A stretch of DNA of 64,000 bases from an uncultured cyanobacterium (lineage in GTDB: Bacteria; Cyanobacteriota; Cyanobacteriia; Thermostichales; Thermostichaceae): the NCBI GenBank assembly GCA_937944885.1, contig CALFBB010000023.1, positions 1-64,000 of the forward strand. The letters are read 5' to 3'. Within the stretch, counting starts at the first letter, position 1. Every line of letters begins with the position of its first letter. Below the pieces are notes generated by a model that worked only from the letters and a program-made list of their open reading frames with translations, was not told where the DNA came from and did not search any database. Of the stretch, positions 5,940-18,756 are shown one piece after another. Position numbers and translations under genes: made by a program.

Positions 5940-6542
5940 CTACTCGCCCTCTGACGCATCCTCCACACTTGCACAATCGGGGTTATTGTCTTTGCGGATG
6001 CTACCCAAGAGGGTGCTGACCACCACACAGCGATTCTCCCCTCGGGAATAGGTACTGCTCACAACAAACCTCCCTAGACGGCGGGCCCGACCCTCTGAAT
6101 CAAAAACAGCCCTCCCACCGGCAAAGTTATTGGTCACTGTCACATAATTGTTAAGTCGAACCCGCTGACAGGGAAGAGGCTCATCGCACAGCCCCTCCTC
6201 ATCCTGAATCAACAGTGTGGGCACATTTGGATCCAAGTTATCCACTTCAACCACCCAGGCTCTCCCCTGCAGAGAAGCCCTGGCATTGCTGCGGGCAGTA
6301 CGCAAAGCCCGCTCAACCCGGTTTTGGGCATCATCGAGCTGGATGCGCGCCCAGAGGTTGATCCCGGAAGGAATAATCGAGATAGCAGCCAAAATACCAA
6401 CAATCACAATAACCGCCAAAACCTCCAGCAGGGTAAAGCCCCTGCCTGGATGAGCACCCCTTGGGCCAGATACTTGCATTGCCTGAAACATATCGTCCCC
6501 TACGCTTGCTGGTTCTCTAGGCTCGACGATTAACCGCACCAC
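5940..6542 (-). CDS. Prepilin-like protein (type IV pilin-like N-terminus), HpsD-like pseudopilin
   Basis: GFTLLEVLAVIVIVGILAAISIIP class III signal; position in hps-type cluster. Confidence 0.75.
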   Translation of the reverse strand: MVRLIVEPREPASVGDDMFQAMQVSGPRGAHPGRGFTLLEVLAVIVIVGILAAISIIPSGINLWARIQLDDAQNRVERALRTARSNARASLQGRAWVVEVDNLDPNVPTLLIQDEEGLCDEPLPCQRVRLNNYVTVTNNFAGGRAVFDSEGRARRLGRFVVSSTYSRGENRCVVVSTLLGSIRKDNNPDCASVEDASEGE

Positions 6543-7608
6543 GGGATAGAACGCGGGTTTGCATCGTGGTCAGGTAACGGGAAACCTGCTCATCGTCAAT
6601 ATCGGTGTCACCTGAAATGTATCTTCTGAACAAGCCCGGGTTGGAGCGCTCCATTGCCGTTGCTGTAATATTGATCAGGACATCTTGAGGCAAGTTCGCA
6701 GCAGCTTCCCGACGCACACAGACATAGAAGCCCAAGTCATTTTGGTTAGTCTCCAGACCACCAAAGATAACCCCCTCCGGCCTGCCGCCACCGAAGGCAT
6801 ACCCTGGCGGGCAATCAGGAGCCACCTGCGGCCTGTTGTTGCGGCTGCTGAAGATGTTGGAGACAAGGGTAGTGAGCCTGGGTCCATCTCTTCGAGTGGC
6901 AATGGGCGTTTGTCTATCCGGCTCCCGAGGCCAAGCCAAGAAACCAGCTTGAAACGGATCCGGATCCTCTGCAAAAAATTCGCTACGCTCAGTACAGTCT
7001 TCATTAAAAGGTTGCAACTCAAAACGGGCAATACGAGCATTGCCCTCCCAGGGGATGGTTGAGCCATCGGCCAAGTTACCGGCATTGTTGTAGTTGCGCT
7101 GCAAGTAATAGACCACCAAGCTATACACGTTGCGACGGCTACGGATATTTTCCCAGTCTTCTTCATGAATGCGAGGCGGGCGTTCCTCCCTGAGCGTAAC
7201 ACGGCCCTCGCGAATCTCCTGGAGAGTTGGGTTACCAGCATAACAACGCTGGGGTATCGGCCTCAGCCGCCAAAAGGCCACCACCGGAATACTGCCTTCC
7301 GGACGGCGAATCCAGCCGGGCTCGTAAAGCCTTTGAATGAGATCCGGGATCCCATCGCCATTGGGCTGTTCGGCATCGTTATAGATGTAGAGAGCTTCTG
7401 CCAGGTCTTGCTGAATATACTCCAGCGCCTGGGTCAGCTCCGCTTGCACCTGGGTGCGGCCTGTCTCTTCCCGATCCACCCGCATGGTCTCGATGACAAT
7501 GCTGCCGGTAGCCAAGAGGAATATCGAGGCCATAAGAGCAGCCACCAGCAACTCGATCAAGGTAAAACCCCAACCGCGGCTCATCCGCTTGTGAAAGACT
7601 CTTGGCAT
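6517..7608 (-). CDS. Prepilin-like protein, HpsC-like pseudopilin
   Basis: GWGFTLIELLVAALMASIFLLATGSIVIE class III signal; cluster context. Confidence 0.78.
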   Translation of the reverse strand: MPRVFHKRMSRGWGFTLIELLVAALMASIFLLATGSIVIETMRVDREETGRTQVQAELTQALEYIQQDLAEALYIYNDAEQPNGDGIPDLIQRLYEPGWIRRPEGSIPVVAFWRLRPIPQRCYAGNPTLQEIREGRVTLREERPPRIHEEDWENIRSRRNVYSLVVYYLQRNYNNAGNLADGSTIPWEGNARIARFELQPFNEDCTERSEFFAEDPDPFQAGFLAWPREPDRQTPIATRRDGPRLTTLVSNIFSSRNNRPQVAPDCPPGYAFGGGRPEGVIFGGLETNQNDLGFYVCVRREAAANLPQDVLINITATAMERSNPGLFRRYISGDTDIDDEQVSRYLTTMQTRVLSRGAVNRRA

Positions 7609-7667: not shown

Positions 7668-8468
7668 CTAAGGACTCTCTATCGGGCTAGGCAGAGGAAG
7701 AGGAAAGGCATCACAATTGCCGGTTGGGTTTTGCACCGTCGCCAAAATGCTGCGACACACATCTCCCAAATTAGCCGCCAGGTTGATCTCCACCAACGAA
7801 CCGGCCATAGGGAATAGCCATACATCGGCATTGGCCAAGTTCTGATTGGCAGAAACAAGCTCGGTTCTTAAGCCTGGCAGAGCCTGACGGCTATCCTTGT
7901 CAAACGAGAAGCGATGGTAAACCCGTACCCCCATCCTAAAAGAGCAAGGTACGCCTTCAATCACGGCATTGTTGCGGCTATCGATGCAATCTGAGCCGGC
8001 CGTGCGGAAGCTCTGAATAACGTACTCTTCCGGGTTGCGACCCGGCAACTGAATTTCGGCAACCCGAACCGAGTAGTTGTTGGCACCGCTATCCATATTC
8101 TCTGGCGGCGGAGTGTTCTCCAGAGGGTTCTCCCCCACCCTAGGGAGACGATCCTCCAGTAGTTCTGCCCGCAGAATCGGGTCAGCGTAAGCGGCGGGAT
8201 TGGGAGCAACCTCCAGATCCACAATCGTGCGCACCCGATCCACCTCATCCTGGACCAGTCGCTCCGCCACTTCCACCCGCTCCGACATAGCCCGCCGATA
8301 GGCAATCAAGGTGAGAGCAGGCGCAAGGGCGGCCATGGCAATGGCCACAATGATCACCGAGGCCAACACCTCAATCAGGGAGAACCCCTCAGACTGCCAC
8401 TGGCGGTGTAAACGTTGCCAACCGATTTGCCGAGCCATTGCCAACTCTCCTTTGACCCAAAAAACCAA
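7668..8468 (-). CDS. Prepilin-like protein, HpsB-like pseudopilin
   Basis: GFSLIEVLASVIIVAIAMAALAPAL class III signal; cluster context. Confidence 0.78.
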   Translation of the reverse strand: MVFWVKGELAMARQIGWQRLHRQWQSEGFSLIEVLASVIIVAIAMAALAPALTLIAYRRAMSERVEVAERLVQDEVDRVRTIVDLEVAPNPAAYADPILRAELLEDRLPRVGENPLENTPPPENMDSGANNYSVRVAEIQLPGRNPEEYVIQSFRTAGSDCIDSRNNAVIEGVPCSFRMGVRVYHRFSFDKDSRQALPGLRTELVSANQNLANADVWLFPMAGSLVEINLAANLGDVCRSILATVQNPTGNCDAFPLPLPSPIESP

Positions 8469-8526: not shown

Positions 8527-11500
8527 TTAATCAAACTCCCCACAACCGCCGATTTGGGCAGTAGCTTCTAGGTTTACCCCCGGCTGCTCCTGCAGGGCGC
8601 AGCGGAGACGACGCACATAAGGATCCTGTGGATCCAGCTCCCTTAGGAACTCGGTGCGCGTGTTGGAGGGGAACTGGAAGCGAGCCGACACTGCGCTGAA
8701 GCGGCGGGCAATTTGCAGACCCACGTCATAGCCGAAACGACGTCTGGGCGGGTAATAGTAGTCGTACCCTAGGACATTGGTCAAGTCCGGCACCAGATTG
8801 GGCGGCTCGAAGCTGCGCTGCAAAAATGGCCCGGTGGCATAGGTGCTGTAGTTCAGTTGAATCATCGACCCACTGAAGAAGAGGTCAACACCTCGCCACA
8901 GCTCATTCAGGCGCAGGAAGTTGTGCATACCGCCATTGGTTTGGTTCAGCCGCGGTGGCACTACGCCACTGATGGCAATGGCATTCACCCGCACCTGTTG
9001 GGCCGGTTGCAGCTGACGGTTGATGGAGCCGTCGTCGTTGCGGCGACGTTGTTCGACTTGAGCAGAAGCGATTTCCTGGAAGCTCGGGATGGGAATGGGG
9101 CGGCGGGTCACCTCATCCAAAATCACCCCTAGCACCGGGTTATTGCCGGCAAAGCCGGTGGTGGGCTGGTTGAGATTCAAGGTGAAAGGCTCAACATCCA
9201 CCCAGGCTTGGCTGCCACCCCAACCCCCATTGCGATCGATTTGCACCTGGATGGTCTTTCCGTTGGGCTTGACGTAGAAGCACAGCCCATTGCGAATGTC
9301 CTCTAGCCCTTTAGCATTGATGTAATAGCCATCCTGGTAGGTGGCGCTGGGGCTGTAGTTTTGAGTCTCGCCGTTGTTCACCCGAGCATAGGGGTTGAGC
9401 ACCATCTGTGGCTGGATGGCTGGCTCATCCTCGTCAAATTGCCCAAACAGCGGATCCCGATCCAGGATTTCCTCCGGCTCAAGGGTGTCGTTTCCGTTGG
9501 CATCCACAAACCTGAGGGTGCTGGGGCGGCTGGCACCGGTGTAAGCGGTGTACCTGAAGGTGGTGTTGAAATTGGGGCGGAACACCCCCGGTACCCAAAA
9601 GCCCCCATCCTTAGGATTAACCTCCTCTTCTCCACAGCGAATTTCGCCGCTGCTGTCGAGGAGCCGCCGCCGCAGTTGCCGTGCCCAGTCTTCACTACCC
9701 ACTGCAGGAGTTCCAGGGATCGGCGCCCCCACCTTCTCAGCAGGACGGATACCCGGTTCTTTGCTGGGGTTGGCAATTTCGCTTGGCAGCAGGGTTCCCT
9801 TCAGACCGGCGCGAGCCGCATGGGCAGGTTCGCCAAACATCCAATTTAAGGTTGCTTGCATCGCCTCTGCCAGGCTGGGCCAGTGGCGCTCCGGTGTGCC
9901 TGCTTTGACCTCCAGCTGCGGTGATAGCTGCGGCTCAAGGGCTAGGGTGACCCCCTGTCGGGCTTCATTGGCTGCCACCCTATTCACATCTAGGGTTTCC
10001 GGCTCCGGATCAGCTTCCACTTCCCATGCCGGCCGCAGCTCAATCGTGGTAGGACGCACCGCCACCGTATTGGGGCTGCTAAAGGGTGAATCGGGCCGCA
10101 GCTCTGGGGGAAGGAAGCTCTGTGAGCCACAAGGAGGAGCCGTGCAGGTGATTGTCTGGGTCTCGGTCTTGGTTGATGGGCAGGTAGGGCTGCTGCCGGT
10201 GATCAAGGAACCTGTCCTGGCTTGGATGAGCGACTGGGTGGTACTACACTTAAGGTTGAGGCTTTCGCAGCTAGGTGTCCAAGGGCTCCAGTTGTAGTTG
10301 CATATGGGGGGGCAAGTCACCGTCTGATTTTGGGTCTCGATGTAGGTTCCCTTGCAGACGGAGTTACAGGTACGGGAGCGAGTTTGCTTGACCTGAGTAC
10401 CACCATTGGCTACCGTGCAGGCCGGCGTCCAGGCAGAGAAACTGCCACAGCTAGGAGCAGGTGGTGTGCAGGTAATCGTTTGATTTTGAGTTTCCGTATA
10501 GGGAGGCTTGGTAGAACAGAGAGGTGTAACCGTGCGGCTTCTGGTTTGGGTGATCTGTGCGCCACTACACTCCTGGGCTTGGGTACAGGCCGGTGTCCAA
10601 CTAGACCAAGGCCCCTCGTTGTATTGAGGAACGCAGGTAGTCAGTCGGGTTTGCGGTGTGGGCGGGGTACCGGGGCAACCGGGGGGTAGGGTAGCCGTCT
10701 TGGTTTGGGTGATGGTTGCTGTAGTACAAATGTTAGGATCGCAGGCAGGCCCCCAATCGCTCCATATGGGATCACAGTTGAGGGATGCTTTACAGTTGCG
10801 CTGCACCGGATTGCCGCTGAGATCTATGGTCGAGCGTGGATCACAGGGCTTGTTCACCGGCTCCAAGGGCTTCAAGTAACGCAGGTCGTAGGTCTCCGGA
10901 GAGTCGCCATCGGGGTTGGTGCTAAAGCGAACAAAAGCATTGTTTATATTCTCATAGGCTTGAATTTCCACCAGATAAGGGGAAGGCTGGGTGGGATCGG
11001 CGCACTCCAGCTCCACCCGCAAAGTGGCCAAGACATTGGTTCCCCCTGCCCAATTTTCTACCCCGGCAGCATTGGGTCCTAGGTTGAGGAAATTACCAGC
11101 ATTAGTACCGGCTGCTGCATTCCGGAAGGTGGCATTGGAGCCATCCCGCCGCCGGATTACAATCCGACCACCATCACCATCATTGGCGTTGAGGTTGTAG
11201 TTAACCAAGCCCGGATAGCGGGGATACAACTCACCCACCCAACGCACCACAAAGAAGTCGTTGCCCCAGTTATTCCCGTTCGGCGCCCCGCCACTTCTTC
11301 GCCGCCAGCAGGAGCGTAAGTGGTTAAATTGATTGGGATTAAAGTTGAACTGCGTCTGGTTGTTGTTGGAGACATTGTAAGCAATGCGGGGGTTCCCAAA
11401 AGGCTCATAGGAATAGCCGATATCATCCGCATCCACCGGCGTACCGGCTGCGTCCGGCTCCAGACAGGAGGGGTTCCAGAAGAAGTCGCCTCGATCTGGT

Positions 11501-14500
11501 TGAGCCGGATCCGATGGAGTGAAAGGAGCTACAGGCGGCCAAGAGTTAGGGGGAGAAAGAATGGGTACCGAAAGGCGGCAGGCCGGTTGTAGAATATCTG
11601 CCAGTGCCGGGGAGCCATTACAGGTGGGGTAGTTGTTGTACAACCGCCGCTTAAAAGGCGAGTTGGAGTCTTGTCCAGTGTTACTACCAAACATGTACCG
11701 AAAGCCACCCCAGCCGGGGAAGCTGCCACCGTCTCTGGCAAACTTGGCTAGGTCAGCAGGGTTGAGGATGGCATCCCGCACACACGCCCATCTCTGCGGC
11801 CCAGTTGCAGTTGAGTTAGGATTGCAAGTAGGAGCACCCGTGAATGCGCCGATATTGTCCGGGATCCCTTGTTGGGGATAAATAGGATCCGGCCAGCGTA
11901 CCGAGCGCAGGTAGGGTAAGTTATTCTCCTGAGCCGCCGGAGCAAGAGGACCAACCAGGCCAGTGGCCGCAAAGTTGGTCTCGTTGCGTCTGTACTGATC
12001 TCTAGGATTGCTCAACCAGCCGTTGTAGTACTCTGCCAGTAGGCCTGAGCCATTCGGTACGGGGCAGGGCCCAGGAGGAGCAATCAGCACCCAGCGGGAG
12101 GTATCGATCACCGGGTTACCCAAGGCAGAAATGCGGGTACCAAAGGCAGCATAACCCCAATCCGGGGCCCGCAACTGCCGCACCGCCGGCACACCTCCCC
12201 CTGCCGTTCTATCGTCGTTGCTGGGATCGCTATCGGTATTGTCAAAGCGGGCAAAGATAGTGTCACGGGCAAAGACCTCCGGATGCCCAGGGCGGGCGGT
12301 GTGGTTCCCCAGATCCTGAGCCCCGTTGGTGTTGTCAAACCGCCGTACCCCAGCTCCCGTATTGTTGGGGTCGTTAGCAGGCCAGTTGTTCCCCCGCACC
12401 ACCAGGGCTTGGTTGAGGAAGGAGGTACTTCCTATCGGGTCCAGCCCTACGCAGCCATAGTATTCGTTGCGCCGAGGAGAAGAGGCCCGGCCATCTTGAT
12501 AATCTCGGTTGGCTACAAAGGCAGAACCACCCCCATTCAGGGTGCCGTCCTGGATAAAGCCATCATCCAAGCTGCCATCGCAGAAATTAGCCGAGAGGAT
12601 ATTTACCGAGTCACCCAATACATCCGTTGCTCGCCATAAATCCTCTTTGGCGCGGGCAAAGTTGGGGTTTTCATTTTCATCTTCCGGTCGCCGCCCGGAC
12701 CCGTAGAAGTTGTTGTACAGACCATCGCTACCAAAGGTGAGGAGTTCCTTAAATTCTTCGAGAAGGTTGCCGTTCTCATCTTGGTGCAGGTTAAAATTAC
12801 CCTGAATGTAAACTGGGTTATCGGAGATAAAAGATAAACCAAAGACTGCTTCATCCGGATCCAAACCTGCACCGCGCCGCAGCACCGCACCGTTGCGCAG
12901 CCGGAAACCATAGGGGCGGCGATCCGGATCGGCAAAGTAATCCACCGGCTTGGGACTCAAGCCCATGTCGGAATTGGGCGGATCCCAGATGGTTTGGTTG
13001 TTCACCGTGCCGCGATCCGGTTGCCCGGCATTCATCACCCCGGCATTGCCCAATACCCCGTTGGCGTTGTTGTTCCGCCAATTGGTCAAGTAGCTGCCAA
13101 AATCACCCAGGGCCGGGCGAGCAATGGCATCCTCCCGCACCGCATCTTCCCGGAAGGCGTAGAAAATTCCCCCTTCCCGATTTTCCTCAATGCCGGCAGG
13201 CAGCCACGTATCGTTATTGATCAAGCTATTGGCTTGACCGTTGACATTACCGGTGAGCAAGGCCAGGTCGATGTTGAGGTTGCGCACCGCCATCGCCTCC
13301 CGCCCGTCGTAAAAGACGGAATCCTTAAAGGGGACACGATGGCATTGATTGCCAATCTGAATCAGCTCAAATTGGTTGCTGTTGGGGCCAGCCGTGTCAT
13401 TGGCACACGCCTGCTGGGCATGGGGCAAAGCCCAGTTGTCAATGCTGGCGCGGGGAGGCAAGGCCACCTGAGCCAGATCAGTTACCGCCAGGTAATTGCC
13501 ACTAGGCGGTAAGAAGCTATAGGCAGCTCGCCGCTCCTGTTCTAGAGGATCCGTCCCACCAAAGTTCTCCGTTGGGAAAATGTAGCGCAGCGGCAGATAA
13601 AAGCGGTGGGTACCCTCTTCAATCGGTAAACCATCGCGGCTATCGTTGATGTCGGCCAGCAACTGTTGAGCAACAACATTACCCTCCTCGGCGGCCCTTT
13701 CAATACGTAAGATATTGTCCGCCAGCATCCCCAGCATGCAGCCGGCAGTTTGCAGCGTGGTTTGATCCGCCAAGCTCAAGCTTTCATAAGGTATGCCGCT
13801 ATCGATGATCCGCCGCAGCTCTGAGAAGTTACCAAAAGCAGTAATAAACGGATCCGGGTGAATCCGCCCTGGCTCTTGGGTAGGAGGAAAGGCCCCTTGT
13901 GGGTCGCCGGCAAAATTGGCCAGGTTGGTAAGGGCATTCCAAAGGGGAGTACCTGGTGTAAGACGTGCCCGCATGGGAGCTGGGTCGTACTCCCAGACGT
14001 TGGTGCCTTGGCCGGTAAAGAAGTTAATGCCCAATTGGGTGGTCTGGTTACCCGTTGGGAAGGTAGAGGCCCGTCGCAAGCTATCCACAGAGCCGGGGTG
14101 AGCAACGGTGGCCAAGCAAGCAACCGGGAAGCGCCCCTCCTCGTGGCTGTAGTGATAAACGGCGGTGGCCTGAACGGCTGCCGGGTTATCGCGCAGGGTA
14201 AGGCGTTGGCGCGCCTGGTTGCTGATCAAGATGGGTTGCAACTTGGTGGGATCGTTGACATCCCCTACAGGTACTAGGGGCAAGGGCAGAGAATCGGTAC
14301 GGGTTAGCTCCAGCCGCTGGCCCACAATGACCCGCAGCCCTTCTACACGGGCACGCCGCTCCCAGTAGCCATCTAGGCCCACCTCCGAGAGAGCCCCTGG
14401 CGGCGGTTCATCAGCGGTGAGCGATTCTTTCTGGTTATTGACAGCATCTGGATCAATGGGAGCACCGGCAGGTTGACCAAAAGTGTCAAAGAAGGTAGGT

Positions 14501-15993
14501 ACGTTACACCCTGTCTCCGGGTCTGGGATCGTGGGCGGGCGATCGTAGCTGGCTTTGGGGCCAAAGCGGTTGTCTGCTCGATAGACATCATCCACATAGG
14601 GAGGACAAATCTGGCTCTGCCCGGAGCTGAACCCCCCAACTTCTACTCGTCCTTTAGGAACGCCTTCGCCCTCCCGTTTAAAGTTAACCGGGGAAGTCTT
14701 CCAGTTAGCCTGATCTTGAATGTAGGGGCCTCGGTTGCGGTTACGGCCAAAGAGGTGCAGCTCCAGCGGATCCAAAGCAACATTCTCCGGTGAAGCACCG
14801 TTATCCACCGAGTCATAGAGATTGTTATTTAGAGCGGGGAAAAAGCTGGGTTCAAGAAAGTGACCCCTTTCGTCGACAGCAAGCCCTGGGTGGGCATCAA
14901 AGCGGATGTTCTCACTGACTGCCTGTCCAGGATAGCCAATTGAGCCTGCCACCAACTCGCCAAAGGCTCTGATCTCGGAGTTGTCTACAGGTATGTAGAA
15001 ACAAGATCCATGCGAGCTGATGGTAAAGGCACGGAACAATGTGCCGGGACCGTAGCGGAAGAAAAGACTGCCACCGGCATAGATGGCGCCGTTCCAGTTG
15101 TAGCTAGGGGTGAAGAAGAACTCGATATCCCCACGGCTAAATGCACCCCATTTGTTGAGTACATCTCGCCGCCGATCCTGCTGAAATTGCAAGGCCGAGA
15201 TGGCACGGGTGGTGGAGTCGGCCCCTTGAATGGGCAGAGTCACCGCATACACCTGGAAGGGCTTGTACAAAGCAGAACCCACCTGGAACCAATCCCCCAC
15301 GTTGGGGTTCACGGTCTGAGCAGCTGGTCTATCCGTGCAACCCTTCAGGGCCGACCCTTGCAGTGGTCCGTTGCGAATCATGAGGCGACGGGCCCGCTCG
15401 GTGTCGGTGATGTTTTCTTCAAAGCCAACGCCGCCAGCCCGCCGAGTATTGAGAATCGTATAAACCGTAACCGAATCGTTGGTGCCATTGTTATCAGTAT
15501 CGACCAGAAACCACCAAGCCGGTGACCGTACCGGCACATTGATGAAGTTGCCAGAGCCAGGGGGATCCTCCGTCGGGATATCGGTGGTGATGACAAACTG
15601 GGTTTCATCCGGCAGGATGTAGGGGTTGGGGTTTTCCTGGGGAATGAGCGACCCATCGTTAATCAAGGCAGAGAGAAATTGGGCATCGTTGGGAGCACTG
15701 TTGGGTAGGCGGCGATCCCTCACCAGAAAATCAATTTTGGCCCTGGCCCGGTCAATGGCGGTATTCAGCTGGCGGCTAATGGTTTGCCCAGCTCGTTCCA
15801 CCTGGGTTTGCACACTGCGCTGGGTAGAACGGGTGAGCAGGCCAACGGTAACCAAGCTCAGCACCAGCACAATTAAAATGGCAATCGGCAGGACAAAGCC
15901 CTTCTGCCGGATCTTGTATCTATCTACCCGTATTTTGAGGGATGCCAGCAAACGCAGGGTGAGCTTGAGCAGAAGGGTGGAAGGAGCAGGCAT
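8527..15993 (-). CDS. Giant HpsA-like (hormogonium polysaccharide biosynthesis-type) surface/secreted protein, 2488 aa
   Basis: N-terminal KGFVLPIAILIVLVLSLVTVGLLTRSTQRSVQTQVERA membrane segment plus helix; followed by three pseudopilin genes as in the hpsABCD arrangement; contains PA14-like and TSP1-like regions. Confidence 0.75.
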   Translation of the reverse strand: MPAPSTLLLKLTLRLLASLKIRVDRYKIRQKGFVLPIAILIVLVLSLVTVGLLTRSTQRSVQTQVERAGQTISRQLNTAIDRARAKIDFLVRDRRLPNSAPNDAQFLSALINDGSLIPQENPNPYILPDETQFVITTDIPTEDPPGSGNFINVPVRSPAWWFLVDTDNNGTNDSVTVYTILNTRRAGGVGFEENITDTERARRLMIRNGPLQGSALKGCTDRPAAQTVNPNVGDWFQVGSALYKPFQVYAVTLPIQGADSTTRAISALQFQQDRRRDVLNKWGAFSRGDIEFFFTPSYNWNGAIYAGGSLFFRYGPGTLFRAFTISSHGSCFYIPVDNSEIRAFGELVAGSIGYPGQAVSENIRFDAHPGLAVDERGHFLEPSFFPALNNNLYDSVDNGASPENVALDPLELHLFGRNRNRGPYIQDQANWKTSPVNFKREGEGVPKGRVEVGGFSSGQSQICPPYVDDVYRADNRFGPKASYDRPPTIPDPETGCNVPTFFDTFGQPAGAPIDPDAVNNQKESLTADEPPPGALSEVGLDGYWERRARVEGLRVIVGQRLELTRTDSLPLPLVPVGDVNDPTKLQPILISNQARQRLTLRDNPAAVQATAVYHYSHEEGRFPVACLATVAHPGSVDSLRRASTFPTGNQTTQLGINFFTGQGTNVWEYDPAPMRARLTPGTPLWNALTNLANFAGDPQGAFPPTQEPGRIHPDPFITAFGNFSELRRIIDSGIPYESLSLADQTTLQTAGCMLGMLADNILRIERAAEEGNVVAQQLLADINDSRDGLPIEEGTHRFYLPLRYIFPTENFGGTDPLEQERRAAYSFLPPSGNYLAVTDLAQVALPPRASIDNWALPHAQQACANDTAGPNSNQFELIQIGNQCHRVPFKDSVFYDGREAMAVRNLNIDLALLTGNVNGQANSLINNDTWLPAGIEENREGGIFYAFREDAVREDAIARPALGDFGSYLTNWRNNNANGVLGNAGVMNAGQPDRGTVNNQTIWDPPNSDMGLSPKPVDYFADPDRRPYGFRLRNGAVLRRGAGLDPDEAVFGLSFISDNPVYIQGNFNLHQDENGNLLEEFKELLTFGSDGLYNNFYGSGRRPEDENENPNFARAKEDLWRATDVLGDSVNILSANFCDGSLDDGFIQDGTLNGGGSAFVANRDYQDGRASSPRRNEYYGCVGLDPIGSTSFLNQALVVRGNNWPANDPNNTGAGVRRFDNTNGAQDLGNHTARPGHPEVFARDTIFARFDNTDSDPSNDDRTAGGGVPAVRQLRAPDWGYAAFGTRISALGNPVIDTSRWVLIAPPGPCPVPNGSGLLAEYYNGWLSNPRDQYRRNETNFAATGLVGPLAPAAQENNLPYLRSVRWPDPIYPQQGIPDNIGAFTGAPTCNPNSTATGPQRWACVRDAILNPADLAKFARDGGSFPGWGGFRYMFGSNTGQDSNSPFKRRLYNNYPTCNGSPALADILQPACRLSVPILSPPNSWPPVAPFTPSDPAQPDRGDFFWNPSCLEPDAAGTPVDADDIGYSYEPFGNPRIAYNVSNNNQTQFNFNPNQFNHLRSCWRRRSGGAPNGNNWGNDFFVVRWVGELYPRYPGLVNYNLNANDGDGGRIVIRRRDGSNATFRNAAAGTNAGNFLNLGPNAAGVENWAGGTNVLATLRVELECADPTQPSPYLVEIQAYENINNAFVRFSTNPDGDSPETYDLRYLKPLEPVNKPCDPRSTIDLSGNPVQRNCKASLNCDPIWSDWGPACDPNICTTATITQTKTATLPPGCPGTPPTPQTRLTTCVPQYNEGPWSSWTPACTQAQECSGAQITQTRSRTVTPLCSTKPPYTETQNQTITCTPPAPSCGSFSAWTPACTVANGGTQVKQTRSRTCNSVCKGTYIETQNQTVTCPPICNYNWSPWTPSCESLNLKCSTTQSLIQARTGSLITGSSPTCPSTKTETQTITCTAPPCGSQSFLPPELRPDSPFSSPNTVAVRPTTIELRPAWEVEADPEPETLDVNRVAANEARQGVTLALEPQLSPQLEVKAGTPERHWPSLAEAMQATLNWMFGEPAHAARAGLKGTLLPSEIANPSKEPGIRPAEKVGAPIPGTPAVGSEDWARQLRRRLLDSSGEIRCGEEEVNPKDGGFWVPGVFRPNFNTTFRYTAYTGASRPSTLRFVDANGNDTLEPEEILDRDPLFGQFDEDEPAIQPQMVLNPYARVNNGETQNYSPSATYQDGYYINAKGLEDIRNGLCFYVKPNGKTIQVQIDRNGGWGGSQAWVDVEPFTLNLNQPTTGFAGNNPVLGVILDEVTRRPIPIPSFQEIASAQVEQRRRNDDGSINRQLQPAQQVRVNAIAISGVVPPRLNQTNGGMHNFLRLNELWRGVDLFFSGSMIQLNYSTYATGPFLQRSFEPPNLVPDLTNVLGYDYYYPPRRRFGYDVGLQIARRFSAVSARFQFPSNTRTEFLRELDPQDPYVRRLRCALQEQPGVNLEATAQIGGCGEFD
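10125..10800 (-). repeat. Four thrombospondin type-1-like repeats inside the HpsA-like protein
   Basis: WSDWGPAC, WSSWTPAC, FSAWTPAC, WSPWTPSC, most followed by QTRSRT-like and ETQNQTITC-like segments. Confidence 0.75.
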
Positions 15994-16146: not shown

Positions 16147-16743
16147 TTAGAGAAGGCCCAGTTGTTGAGCCTTGAAGAGGGCGGTAACGCGGTCACTGGC
16201 CTCCAATTTGCGGTAGACGGCGCTGGCATATTCTTTAACGGTTTCGATGCTTAACCCCAAGCGGCGGGCAATCTGTTTGTTGGCTAAGCCCTCGGCCATC
16301 AACTGCAAGACACTTAGCTCGCGGGGGGTAAGGTGGGGCAACTTTTGCTGGGCAGGTAGCCAGTCTTGCTCGGGGGCAGCCACAATCTGCCGAATCGCTT
16401 GGGCTAATTGAGCCGGGTCGGTTTCTTTGGAGAGATACCCTTTGGCTCCTGCTTTGCGGGCCGCTTCGATTAAAGCCGGCTCTTGAAAGGTGGTCATTAA
16501 CAAGACCACCACCGGCAACCCCAGCTCGGTAATCTGCCGGCAGGCCAGAATGCCATCTCCATCCGGCATGCGCACATCCAGGATGGCTACATCTACCCCG
16601 CCACCCTGACACCGGCTCACCGCCTGGGATCCGGTTTCAGCTTCTGCCACCACCTCAAATCCCTGGGCTTGCAGAGCAAACTTTAACCCCAACCGAAATA
16701 GGGGATGATCATCGGCAATCAAGATGCGAATAGGAGAACTCAT
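16147..16743 (-). CDS. NarL/LuxR-family response regulator
   Basis: REC: ILIADDHPLFRLGLKFAL, ILDVRMPDGDGI; HTH: LTPRELSVLQLMAEGLANKQIARRLGLSIETVKEYASAVYRKL. Confidence 0.93.
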   Translation of the reverse strand: MSSPIRILIADDHPLFRLGLKFALQAQGFEVVAEAETGSQAVSRCQGGGVDVAILDVRMPDGDGILACRQITELGLPVVVLLMTTFQEPALIEAARKAGAKGYLSKETDPAQLAQAIRQIVAAPEQDWLPAQQKLPHLTPRELSVLQLMAEGLANKQIARRLGLSIETVKEYASAVYRKLEASDRVTALFKAQQLGLL

Positions 16744-16824
16744 GCCAGGTGGATCCCAGCCGAGACATGGGCTGACTCTAGTCTTCCCAGATCAGGGGAT
16801 CCCTGGCTCAGCCGCAGGAAAAAT

Positions 16825-18756
16825 TCACACAGGCTGTCGGGGGAGCTCCAAGATAAAGCAGGTTTTTCCCCCGCTACTTTCTGCCCACAGGGATCCTTGC
16901 AGGCGCTCTGCCAGTTTACGGCTGAGGGCCAACCCCAGACCGGTCCCCCCATACTTCCAGGGGTCGTTGTTGGGTAGCCGGTAGAACCTCTCGAAGATGC
17001 GTTCTAGATCCTTGGCAGGGATGACCACGCCGGTATTCGTGACCCGCAGTTGCCAGGTATTGTCCAGGAACAGAGTAGAGACGGTGATGGTTTCCCCTGC
17101 GGGGGTGTATTTGCAGGCGTTGGTAAGCAGCTCGGTAACAATGCGCTCTAGGTAAGGGGAAAAGGTTTGGATAAGCGGGCAATTTTCCGGTAACCCAATC
17201 TCTAGGGTTTGCCGGTGAAGGGCAGCTCGTTCTCGAAAAGGATCCAATTTCTGGAGTAGCCATTCTCGTAGATTAAGGGTGTGCCACTGCAAGGGTGCGG
17301 TATCGGCATCAAGGCGAGACAGCTCCAGCAGATCGTTGATCAGCTCGGTCTCGCGGTTACACTCCTGCTCCAGGATCGATAGGTAGCGCTTGACCAGCGC
17401 TTTATTCTTGGCCGCCAGACCGGCCCCCTCCAGGACCACCGACAACATTTTGGCCGCCATTTTGATGCTGGCCATGGGGGAGCGCAGCTCGTGAGAAACG
17501 GTGCTCAGAAAGTCATCTTTGAGCTGGTTGAGGCGCTCTAGCTCATGCACCTGAGCTAAGGAGGCTTGGTAAAGGCGGGCTTGCCGCAGAGCAATGACAC
17601 ATTGGCTGGCCACCTGCTGCACCATGCGCACTTCCGCTTCTGTGAAGCTTTCCTCAGCCGGCCTGTACAGCCACATATCCCCCAAGACCTGCTTTTCAGC
17701 GATCAAGGGGCAACTGAGCACCGTAAAGCGGGTATGGATTTTTGCAGAAGGATCCCGGTAGGAGGGCAATAGGGGACAAAACTGGACAGCTTGCCCCTGC
17801 AGCAGTTGCCGATAGAGATCCGGAAGAACGGCAAAGGAGACAACCCGTCCCACTGCCGGGGTTAACGGATAATCAGGGTGGAGGTACTCGTGGTGAATGG
17901 TGGAGGATTGCTGATGCTGGTCGTAAAGAGCAGTATCACAGCTAATCACCCCCAATTGACGGCCCAACTCTTCCACTACCGTCTGTAAGATATCCTTTTC
18001 ATCCAGGCTATCGCGCACTTTTTCAATAATGCCCTTGAGTAACTGTTCAAGCTCAAGAGCCTGCCGAAGTTGATGGGTGCGCTCTTCCACCATCTCTTCT
18101 AGGTCGGTGTTGAGCTGCTGCAGCTGCCGGTACAACTGAGCTTGATGGATGGCAACGGCTACCTGATCCGCCAGCCGCTTGAGCAAACTGATCTCGTGAG
18201 TCTGCCAGTTGCGAGGGGCAGAACAGTGATGGGCAATCAGCAAACCCCAGAGGGATCCCTCGGGTAAAATCGGTACCACCAAGTTGGCCCGTACCTGATA
18301 CCGGCCCAGAAACTGAATGTGACAGGGATCCAGATTGGCAACTTCAATATCATCGATGCTCTTAATCCGCCCCTGCCGATAGGGTTCAACCAGGTCACCC
18401 CCAAAGCAATTATCCCGAATGTCGGATCCCAAAATCGGTAGCCACGGCTCTGCTACAGACTCGGTTACGACCTCTCCCCCTTGCCAATCCGGTTGGAAGC
18501 GAAAGATGAGCACCCGATCCGTCTGCAGCAGAGAACGAACTCCTGAAACGGCTCGATTCAAGATTTCTTGCAGATCTAAAGACTCGCGGATATGATGGAT
18601 AACTTCCGCAAGTAGCTCAGCTTGCCGAAGTTCTAGCTCTAAAGATTGTTTGGCTGCTCTTTTCTTGACAAGATCCTCAATTTTGCCACCATCCTCAACT
18701 GAGGAATCTCTGCTTTCTTCCGCATTCTCCTTCAAAACAAGCCGAAAAGTCGTCAT
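16825..18756 (-). CDS. GAF-GAF sensor histidine kinase; first GAF looks like a cyanobacteriochrome
   Basis: H-box STVSHELRSPMASI; G box KYGGTGLGLALSRKLAE; GAF1 with DNCF and PCHIQFLGRYQVRANLVVPI…LWGLLIAHHCSAPRNWQ. Confidence 0.9.
   Translation of the reverse strand: MTTFRLVLKENAEESRDSSVEDGGKIEDLVKKRAAKQSLELELRQAELLAEVIHHIRESLDLQEILNRAVSGVRSLLQTDRVLIFRFQPDWQGGEVVTESVAEPWLPILGSDIRDNCFGGDLVEPYRQGRIKSIDDIEVANLDPCHIQFLGRYQVRANLVVPILPEGSLWGLLIAHHCSAPRNWQTHEISLLKRLADQVAVAIHQAQLYRQLQQLNTDLEEMVEERTHQLRQALELEQLLKGIIEKVRDSLDEKDILQTVVEELGRQLGVISCDTALYDQHQQSSTIHHEYLHPDYPLTPAVGRVVSFAVLPDLYRQLLQGQAVQFCPLLPSYRDPSAKIHTRFTVLSCPLIAEKQVLGDMWLYRPAEESFTEAEVRMVQQVASQCVIALRQARLYQASLAQVHELERLNQLKDDFLSTVSHELRSPMASIKMAAKMLSVVLEGAGLAAKNKALVKRYLSILEQECNRETELINDLLELSRLDADTAPLQWHTLNLREWLLQKLDPFRERAALHRQTLEIGLPENCPLIQTFSPYLERIVTELLTNACKYTPAGETITVSTLFLDNTWQLRVTNTGVVIPAKDLERIFERFYRLPNNDPWKYGGTGLGLALSRKLAERLQGSLWAESSGGKTCFILELPRQPV

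Follow-up and report, generated by a model that had tools for sequence, protein, structure and literature searches.

Pilus tips can bear modular pilins with a vWA, lectin or PA14 module (PMC8179133). In the HIJK tip complex, the K subunit lacks the glutamate at position 5 (Glu5) and caps the filament (PMC9934059). PA14 lectins occur in RTX adhesins (PMC8092209; PMC12077191), and in these lectins two consecutive Asp residues in a cis bond (DcisD) hold calcium and the sugar (PMC8092209). How minor pilins define the function of the pilus was described as an open question in a 2025 review (PMC12288463). The cyanobacterial protein HpsA (hormogonium polysaccharide protein, NF038301) has been named, yet no molecular role for it is known from the literature considered here.

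Here we examine an hpsA gene in a window of 64,000 nucleotides (the whole stretch of DNA that was analysed) from an uncultured hot-spring cyanobacterium of the Thermostichaceae. The open reading frame starts with ATG, contains no internal stop and encodes a protein that scores 480.1 bits against the NCBIfam model NF038301 (EPS_HpsA; E 1.6e-143, match aa 15-763), above the curated cut-off of 400 bits. The product is HpsA, as the first-pass annotation had suggested when it described an HpsA-like giant protein. Full-length counterparts with 62-75% identity are present in the five other genomes of the genus. The N-terminal membrane segment that had been described was located at aa 32-53 (GFVLPIAILIVLVLSLVTVGLL), and all of the motifs that had been quoted were found in their places: GSGLLAEYYNGW at aa 1315 (window 12051), VVRWVGELY at aa 1582 (window 11250), and WSDWGPAC, WSSWTPAC, FSAWTPAC and WSPWTPSC within aa 1743-1909 (window 10767-10267). 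A promoter and terminator scan gave signals at or below chance level. The features of the locus are collected in Table 1.

Table 1. Features of the hpsA locus, with positions in the window.
Feature	Residues (aa)	Position	Strand	Basis
GspH-like pseudopilin, GFTLLE, Glu5		5940..6542	(-)	TIGR01708 E 3.5e-7 (below cut-off), N_methyl E 6.7e-6
HpsC-like / GspJ-like pseudopilin, GFTLIE, Glu5		6517..7608	(-)	NF038304 E 2.5e-27 (below cut-off), GspJ E 4e-4
HpsB-like / PilV-GspI-like pseudopilin, GFSLIE, Glu5		7668..8468	(-)	NF038303 E 1.3e-11 (below cut-off), PilV E 3e-4, N_methyl E 6.7e-5
hpsA-like gene, giant minor-pilin-like protein	2488 in total	8527..15993	(-)	NF038301 score and intact ORF
Conserved HpsA C block, follows insertion	2326-2466	8596..9018	(-)	C-block profile
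Pro/Glu-rich linker with FGEPA[HY]AA	1958-2115	9649..10122	(-)	sequence and relatives
TSR-like unit 4, Cys pattern compatible with group 2 TSR	1898-1955	10129..10302	(-)	motifs and repeat profile
TSR-like unit 3	1850-1898	10300..10446	(-)	repeat profile
TSR-like unit 2	1794-1849	10447..10614	(-)	repeat profile
TSR-like unit 1	1742-1790	10624..10770	(-)	repeat profile
PA14-like domain with long internal loop	1313-1712	10858..12057	(-)	profile comparison
PA14 core strands aligned by hhalign	1576-1691	10921..11268	(-)	hhalign; predicted beta-rich, pLDDT blocks mostly 57-78
PA14 Asp-Asp pair site NYNLNANDGDGGR, split by GATGGT tandem duplication		11164..11202	(-)	alignment of relatives
Loop of ~200 aa inside PA14-like domain	about 1375-1573	11275..11871	(-)	alignment of relatives
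Conserved HpsA M block, precedes insertion	884-1150	12544..13344	(-)	M-block profile
Conserved HpsA N block	15-767	13693..15951	(-)	NF038301 match and relatives
Prepilin-like segment GFVLPIAILIVLVLSLVTVGLL, no Glu at +5	32-62	15808..15900	(-)	GFVLP invariance; PilX_N

The N-terminus of HpsA partly resembles a class III signal (a short hydrophilic leader that ends in Gly, then a hydrophobic stretch): a Gly is followed by FVLP and a hydrophobic stretch, but the leader is 32 aa long when counted from the called ATG. GFVLP and the hydrophobic helix are invariant over all 13 HpsA N-termini compared. The best-supported relative in Pfam is the family PilX_N, which matches five of these 13 (best E 0.0011) and the window protein weakly (E 0.085). 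The residue at position 5 separates HpsA from its neighbours, as HpsA reads GFVLPI and lacks Glu5 while the three genes directly downstream of hpsA encode I-type (PilV-like), J-type (GspJ-like) and H-type (GspH-like) pseudopilins with Glu5 (GFSLIE, GFTLIE and GFTLLE, respectively). HpsB-like and HpsC-like genes thus lie next to hpsA in the right order, though both products score below the equivalog cut-offs. The gene order A-B-C-H is kept in one relative of the genus; the remaining loci of the genus share the order A-B and break off after it. Just upstream of hpsA (window 16147-18756) are genes for a NarL-type response regulator and a GAF histidine kinase; the NarL-type regulator also adjoins hpsA in genus relatives and may control the tip operon.

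We consider it somewhat more probable than an even chance that HpsA is a giant K-type modular minor pilin at the tip of the type IV pilus, where it presents a clade-specific adhesive head. This reading is favoured because of the Glu5 pattern, the gene order, the insertion site described below and the precedents in other pili. The PilX-like N-terminal helix of HpsA would cap a tip complex that also contains the I-, J- and H-like products of the three downstream genes, and HpsA would be processed by PilD. The genome encodes PilB/PilT-type ATPases and a single secretin, so HpsA and its partners are most likely carried by the ordinary type IV pilus, and the tip complex would be exported and assembled by this one machine.

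The pseudopilin neighbours are also what would be expected if HpsA were a scaffold or gate of a polysaccharide-secreting pseudopilus, with the PA14-like and TSR-like modules binding and guiding the outgoing polysaccharide and not outside surfaces. The name of the HpsA family and the literature tie the hps genes to motility polysaccharide, and PA14 domains are often carbohydrate-binding. This function is weakened by the finding that no HpsE-type glycosyltransferase exceeds the cut-off in the genome, which is 95% complete (best score 48 bits vs 300). Additionally, no polysaccharide gene turned up in the scanned ORFs of the window's first 25 kb. We regard a role in secretion of this kind as unlikely.

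The PA14-like and TSR-like modules both lie within an insertion of ~1.1 kaa at the junction of the conserved M and C blocks of HpsA. The length of this junction was measured with profiles of the two blocks. Thirteen ordinary HpsA proteins have a spacer of 78-146 aa, and one further HpsA protein has 287 aa. In four HpsA-like proteins that are more distant the spacer spans 412-1511 aa, and in all six members of the genus 1103-1192 aa. In an HpsA-like protein of another lineage (locus L049, 1367-6037, a 3160-aa open frame), the same junction holds an unrelated stretch of ~1.5 kaa (1511 aa), in which Pfam found no family. Different stretches are thus found at one junction, so the junction seems to accept different modules, which suggests that it is a module-accepting site. 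Internal repeats are present in the L049 insert. In the window protein the insertion comprises a PA14-like head with its large extra loop, followed by the four TSR-like units and by a Pro-rich linker leading back to the core. The FGEPA[HY]AA motif of this linker, between the TSR-like array and the C block, is conserved family-wide and resembles a signal-peptidase AxA site.

The region aa 1742-1955 consists of four tandem Cys/Trp units. When each unit was left out of the profile in turn, the omitted unit of the window protein was still recovered with 21.6-37.8 bits, and the maximum for 200 composition-preserving shuffles was 7.7 bits. The four units are real repeats, and the four consecutive Cys-rich units reported from the first reading of the sequence are borne out. 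An AlphaFold2 model of the array, built from an alignment of seven relatives, has a pLDDT of 86.6. The first 15 ranks of a Foldseek search with this model were all properdin, the TSRs of thrombospondin-1 or pleiotrophin (best E 1.9e-6, probability up to 1.00). Beyond this TSR-type group, the highest-ranking match was an S-layer protein with a probability of 0.20. The TM-scores are low (0.11-0.34, with the whole array compared), probably because several small domains do not superpose as one whole. No Pfam TSP family exceeded its cut-off in the whole protein, the block, the single units or the relatives; the best score was with TSP1_CFP_C (E 0.082, in one of 18 units). TSP_1 has zero matches in the organism's own genome, an NCBIfam scan of the whole protein for TSP or PA14 returned nothing over cut-off, and the PDB sequence searches with the array and unit profiles gave no match, so the TSR assignment is made from the predicted fold alone. 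The likeness to thrombospondin type 1 claimed by the first-pass annotation therefore stands for the predicted fold, which is TSR-like, and fails for membership of the TSP_1 sequence family.

There are 20 Cys over the four units. From the sequence, the Cys of unit 4 would permit all three group 2 pairs (1898-1938, 1909-1950 and 1916-1955) and those of units 1-3 only two pairs each. We take unit 4 to have all six group 2 TSR Cys positions, and unit 3 presumably resembles a group 1 TSR minus one pair, both judged from the sequence and from what is known of the TSR groups.

The units could instead be an unrelated beta-ribbon repeat that has converged on the TSR pattern, in which case the TSR label would be a mere analogy. 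All Pfam TSP families stay below cut-off, and the units have the Trp-to-Cys spacing WxxWxxxC, one residue longer than the usual TSR consensus WxxWxxC. TSP_1 is also practically absent from the phylum; five weak matches in 386 phylum genomes, four of them with internal stop codons, were judged to be chance. Two points speak for more than an analogy: Foldseek specifically matched a wide range of TSR structures, and Trp, Arg and Cys follow one another in the order of the TSR pattern. Both could reflect either common descent or convergence, and we give an unrelated, converged repeat a substantial chance, though one short of even.

The region aa 1313-1712 is predicted to be PA14-like on the basis of profile comparison and not of a fold search. 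A profile of seven relatives matched the PA14 dyad of RsgI3 (6qe7) in the PDB with a whole-sequence E of 1.5e-6 (0.003 for the best single stretch) and the PA14 protein 6qdi with an E of 2.4e-4. When the profile was aligned to cyanobacterial PA14 domains with hhalign, a probability of 92.3% and a score of 49.9 over the core strands were obtained. The maximum for 60 column-shuffled profiles was 19.2 and the reversed profile scored 12.5. The result holds when the loop columns are removed (score 47.4). The Pfam family PF07691 had no match in the window protein or in scans of its sub-regions, nor in any genome of the genus. The model of this region has an overall pLDDT of 42.7, with core blocks at about 57-78, and gave no significant Foldseek match; the picornavirus capsids at the top of that search (probability about 0.1) were set aside as noise from a poor model. 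The PA14-like region had already been called in the first reading of the sequence. Profile comparison agrees with that call, Pfam does not, and the low-confidence model gave no confirmation. The region is upstream of the TSR-like array in protein order, as had been described, but is one domain interrupted by a loop of ~200 aa and not a compact block. The loop is largely missing from the sister-genus relative in the alignment. Both the TSR and the PA14 labels are remote resemblances below the Pfam family cut-offs.

At the site aligned with the Asp-Asp pair of PA14 lectins, DDG is kept in all five other genus members and is absent in the sister genus. In the window strain, the only genus member in which the pair is broken, a 6-base duplication repeats GATGGT in tandem and the protein reads NDGDGG. 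It is therefore doubtful whether the domain of this strain binds sugar in the usual way. A passive stalk would account for such a site: the TSR-like array would be a heat-stable, disulfide-rich spacer and the PA14-like domain would have no ligand, at least in the window strain. The absence of the pair in the sister genus and the varying number of recognisable units among relatives (2 to 4) are consistent with such a stalk, but DDG persists in the other five members and the PA14-like domain itself is retained throughout the genus (six of six members) and in the sister genus. We think a purely passive stalk improbable.

Matches to the whole window HpsA were found in 33 of the 39 relatives' genomes, and the full PA14-like and TSR-like modules only in the genus itself (all six members) and in one sister genus. 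In the assembly of this sister genus (L034), HpsA is broken up among several reading frames and contigs, and a second sister genus with a fragmented assembly gave a short PA14-like match. Among 390 genomes of the class, in the part of the first-look candidates that was scored per genome, the array and unit profile matched seven, all from the family of the window organism, and no TSR-like unit was found in the other 383. A scan of public genomes returned one MAG of the genus only. No TSR-like array was found in plasmids and phages, so there is no sign of a mobile source there. The possibility that the domains are constant in all HpsA proteins, which would have spoken against the first reading, was examined and does not apply, as the insertion is confined to the family.

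In the modular-pilin reading, the TSR-like units would form a disulfide-rich and probably elongated spacer and may themselves bind. The insertion presented at the tip would determine what the pilus grips, whether mat polysaccharide, neighbouring cells or the substratum, and this grip would act during attachment and phototactic twitching. Several points count against a tip adhesin: the PilX_N match is weak, the PA14-like domain has no fold-search confirmation, the Asp-Asp pair is interrupted, the downstream pseudopilins are below the HpsB and HpsC cut-offs, and HpsA has been linked in the literature to polysaccharide secretion and not to adhesion. The first-pass annotation had proposed a surface adhesin or a gliding or slime factor, and its interpretation is borne out in part. 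We infer that a surface adhesin at the pilus tip is the better part of that proposal; the slime part is weaker, with no HpsE above its cut-off in the genome and the Asp-Asp pair broken.

The likeness of HpsA to modular pilins of the K type, together with its insertion site, is more informative than the domain labels. The Glu5 pattern, the gene order and the insertion site lead to a testable claim, namely that HpsA is a cyanobacterial K subunit plus PilY1 in one protein. If true, this would explain how one and the same pilus could have a different grip in different cyanobacteria, and TSR-like modules would serve motility-linked adhesion in bacteria. TSR adhesins drive gliding in apicomplexans. 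A broader and rather doubtful view, which we offer tentatively, is that the HpsA proteins form a family of giant proteins of the pilus tip throughout the phylum, with one fixed site at which different lineages insert different adhesive modules. The Thermostichus-like cyanobacteria would then have acquired the TSR-like array at that site, as true thrombospondin-type adhesion modules at the tip of a bacterial type IV pilus, paralleling the apicomplexan adhesins.

The likeness to known systems differs from one part of the protein to the next. The array shares its predicted fold, WxxW, Q-T-R-x-R and the Cys order with thrombospondin type 1 repeat proteins (properdin and thrombospondin-1) and differs from them in being bacterial, in having 5 Cys per unit in mixed patterns and in falling below every Pfam TSP cut-off. 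The PA14-like domain matches the PA14 domains of RsgI3 and of RTX adhesins (MpPA14) in the core-strand profile, with DDG in most relatives, whereas the window domain has a large loop insertion and an interrupted Asp-Asp pair. Like GspK, which acts with GspH-I-J, and PilX, which acts with FimU-PilV-PilW and PilY1, HpsA shows the K-type lack of Glu5 and has H-, I- and J-type gene neighbours, although its core is several times larger than GspK and the sequence link to PilX_N is weak. The word thrombospondin is absent from the main text of two papers on modular pilins (PMC8179133, PMC9934059). With the modular pilins PilB and PilC of Streptococcus sanguinis and with PA14-bearing modular pilins (PMC8179133, PMC9934059), HpsA would have in common that a functional module is joined to a pilin and displayed at the tip, PA14 being one of the modules listed for known modular pilins (PMC8179133); HpsA is much larger and its module sits inside the conserved core. 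Also among the closest systems is the HpsA family itself, with which the window protein shares the N, M and C blocks, the prepilin-like N-terminus and the HpsB-like and HpsC-like neighbours, and from whose 13 ordinary members it differs in carrying, in place of a short spacer at the junction, the PA14-like domain and four TSR-like units.
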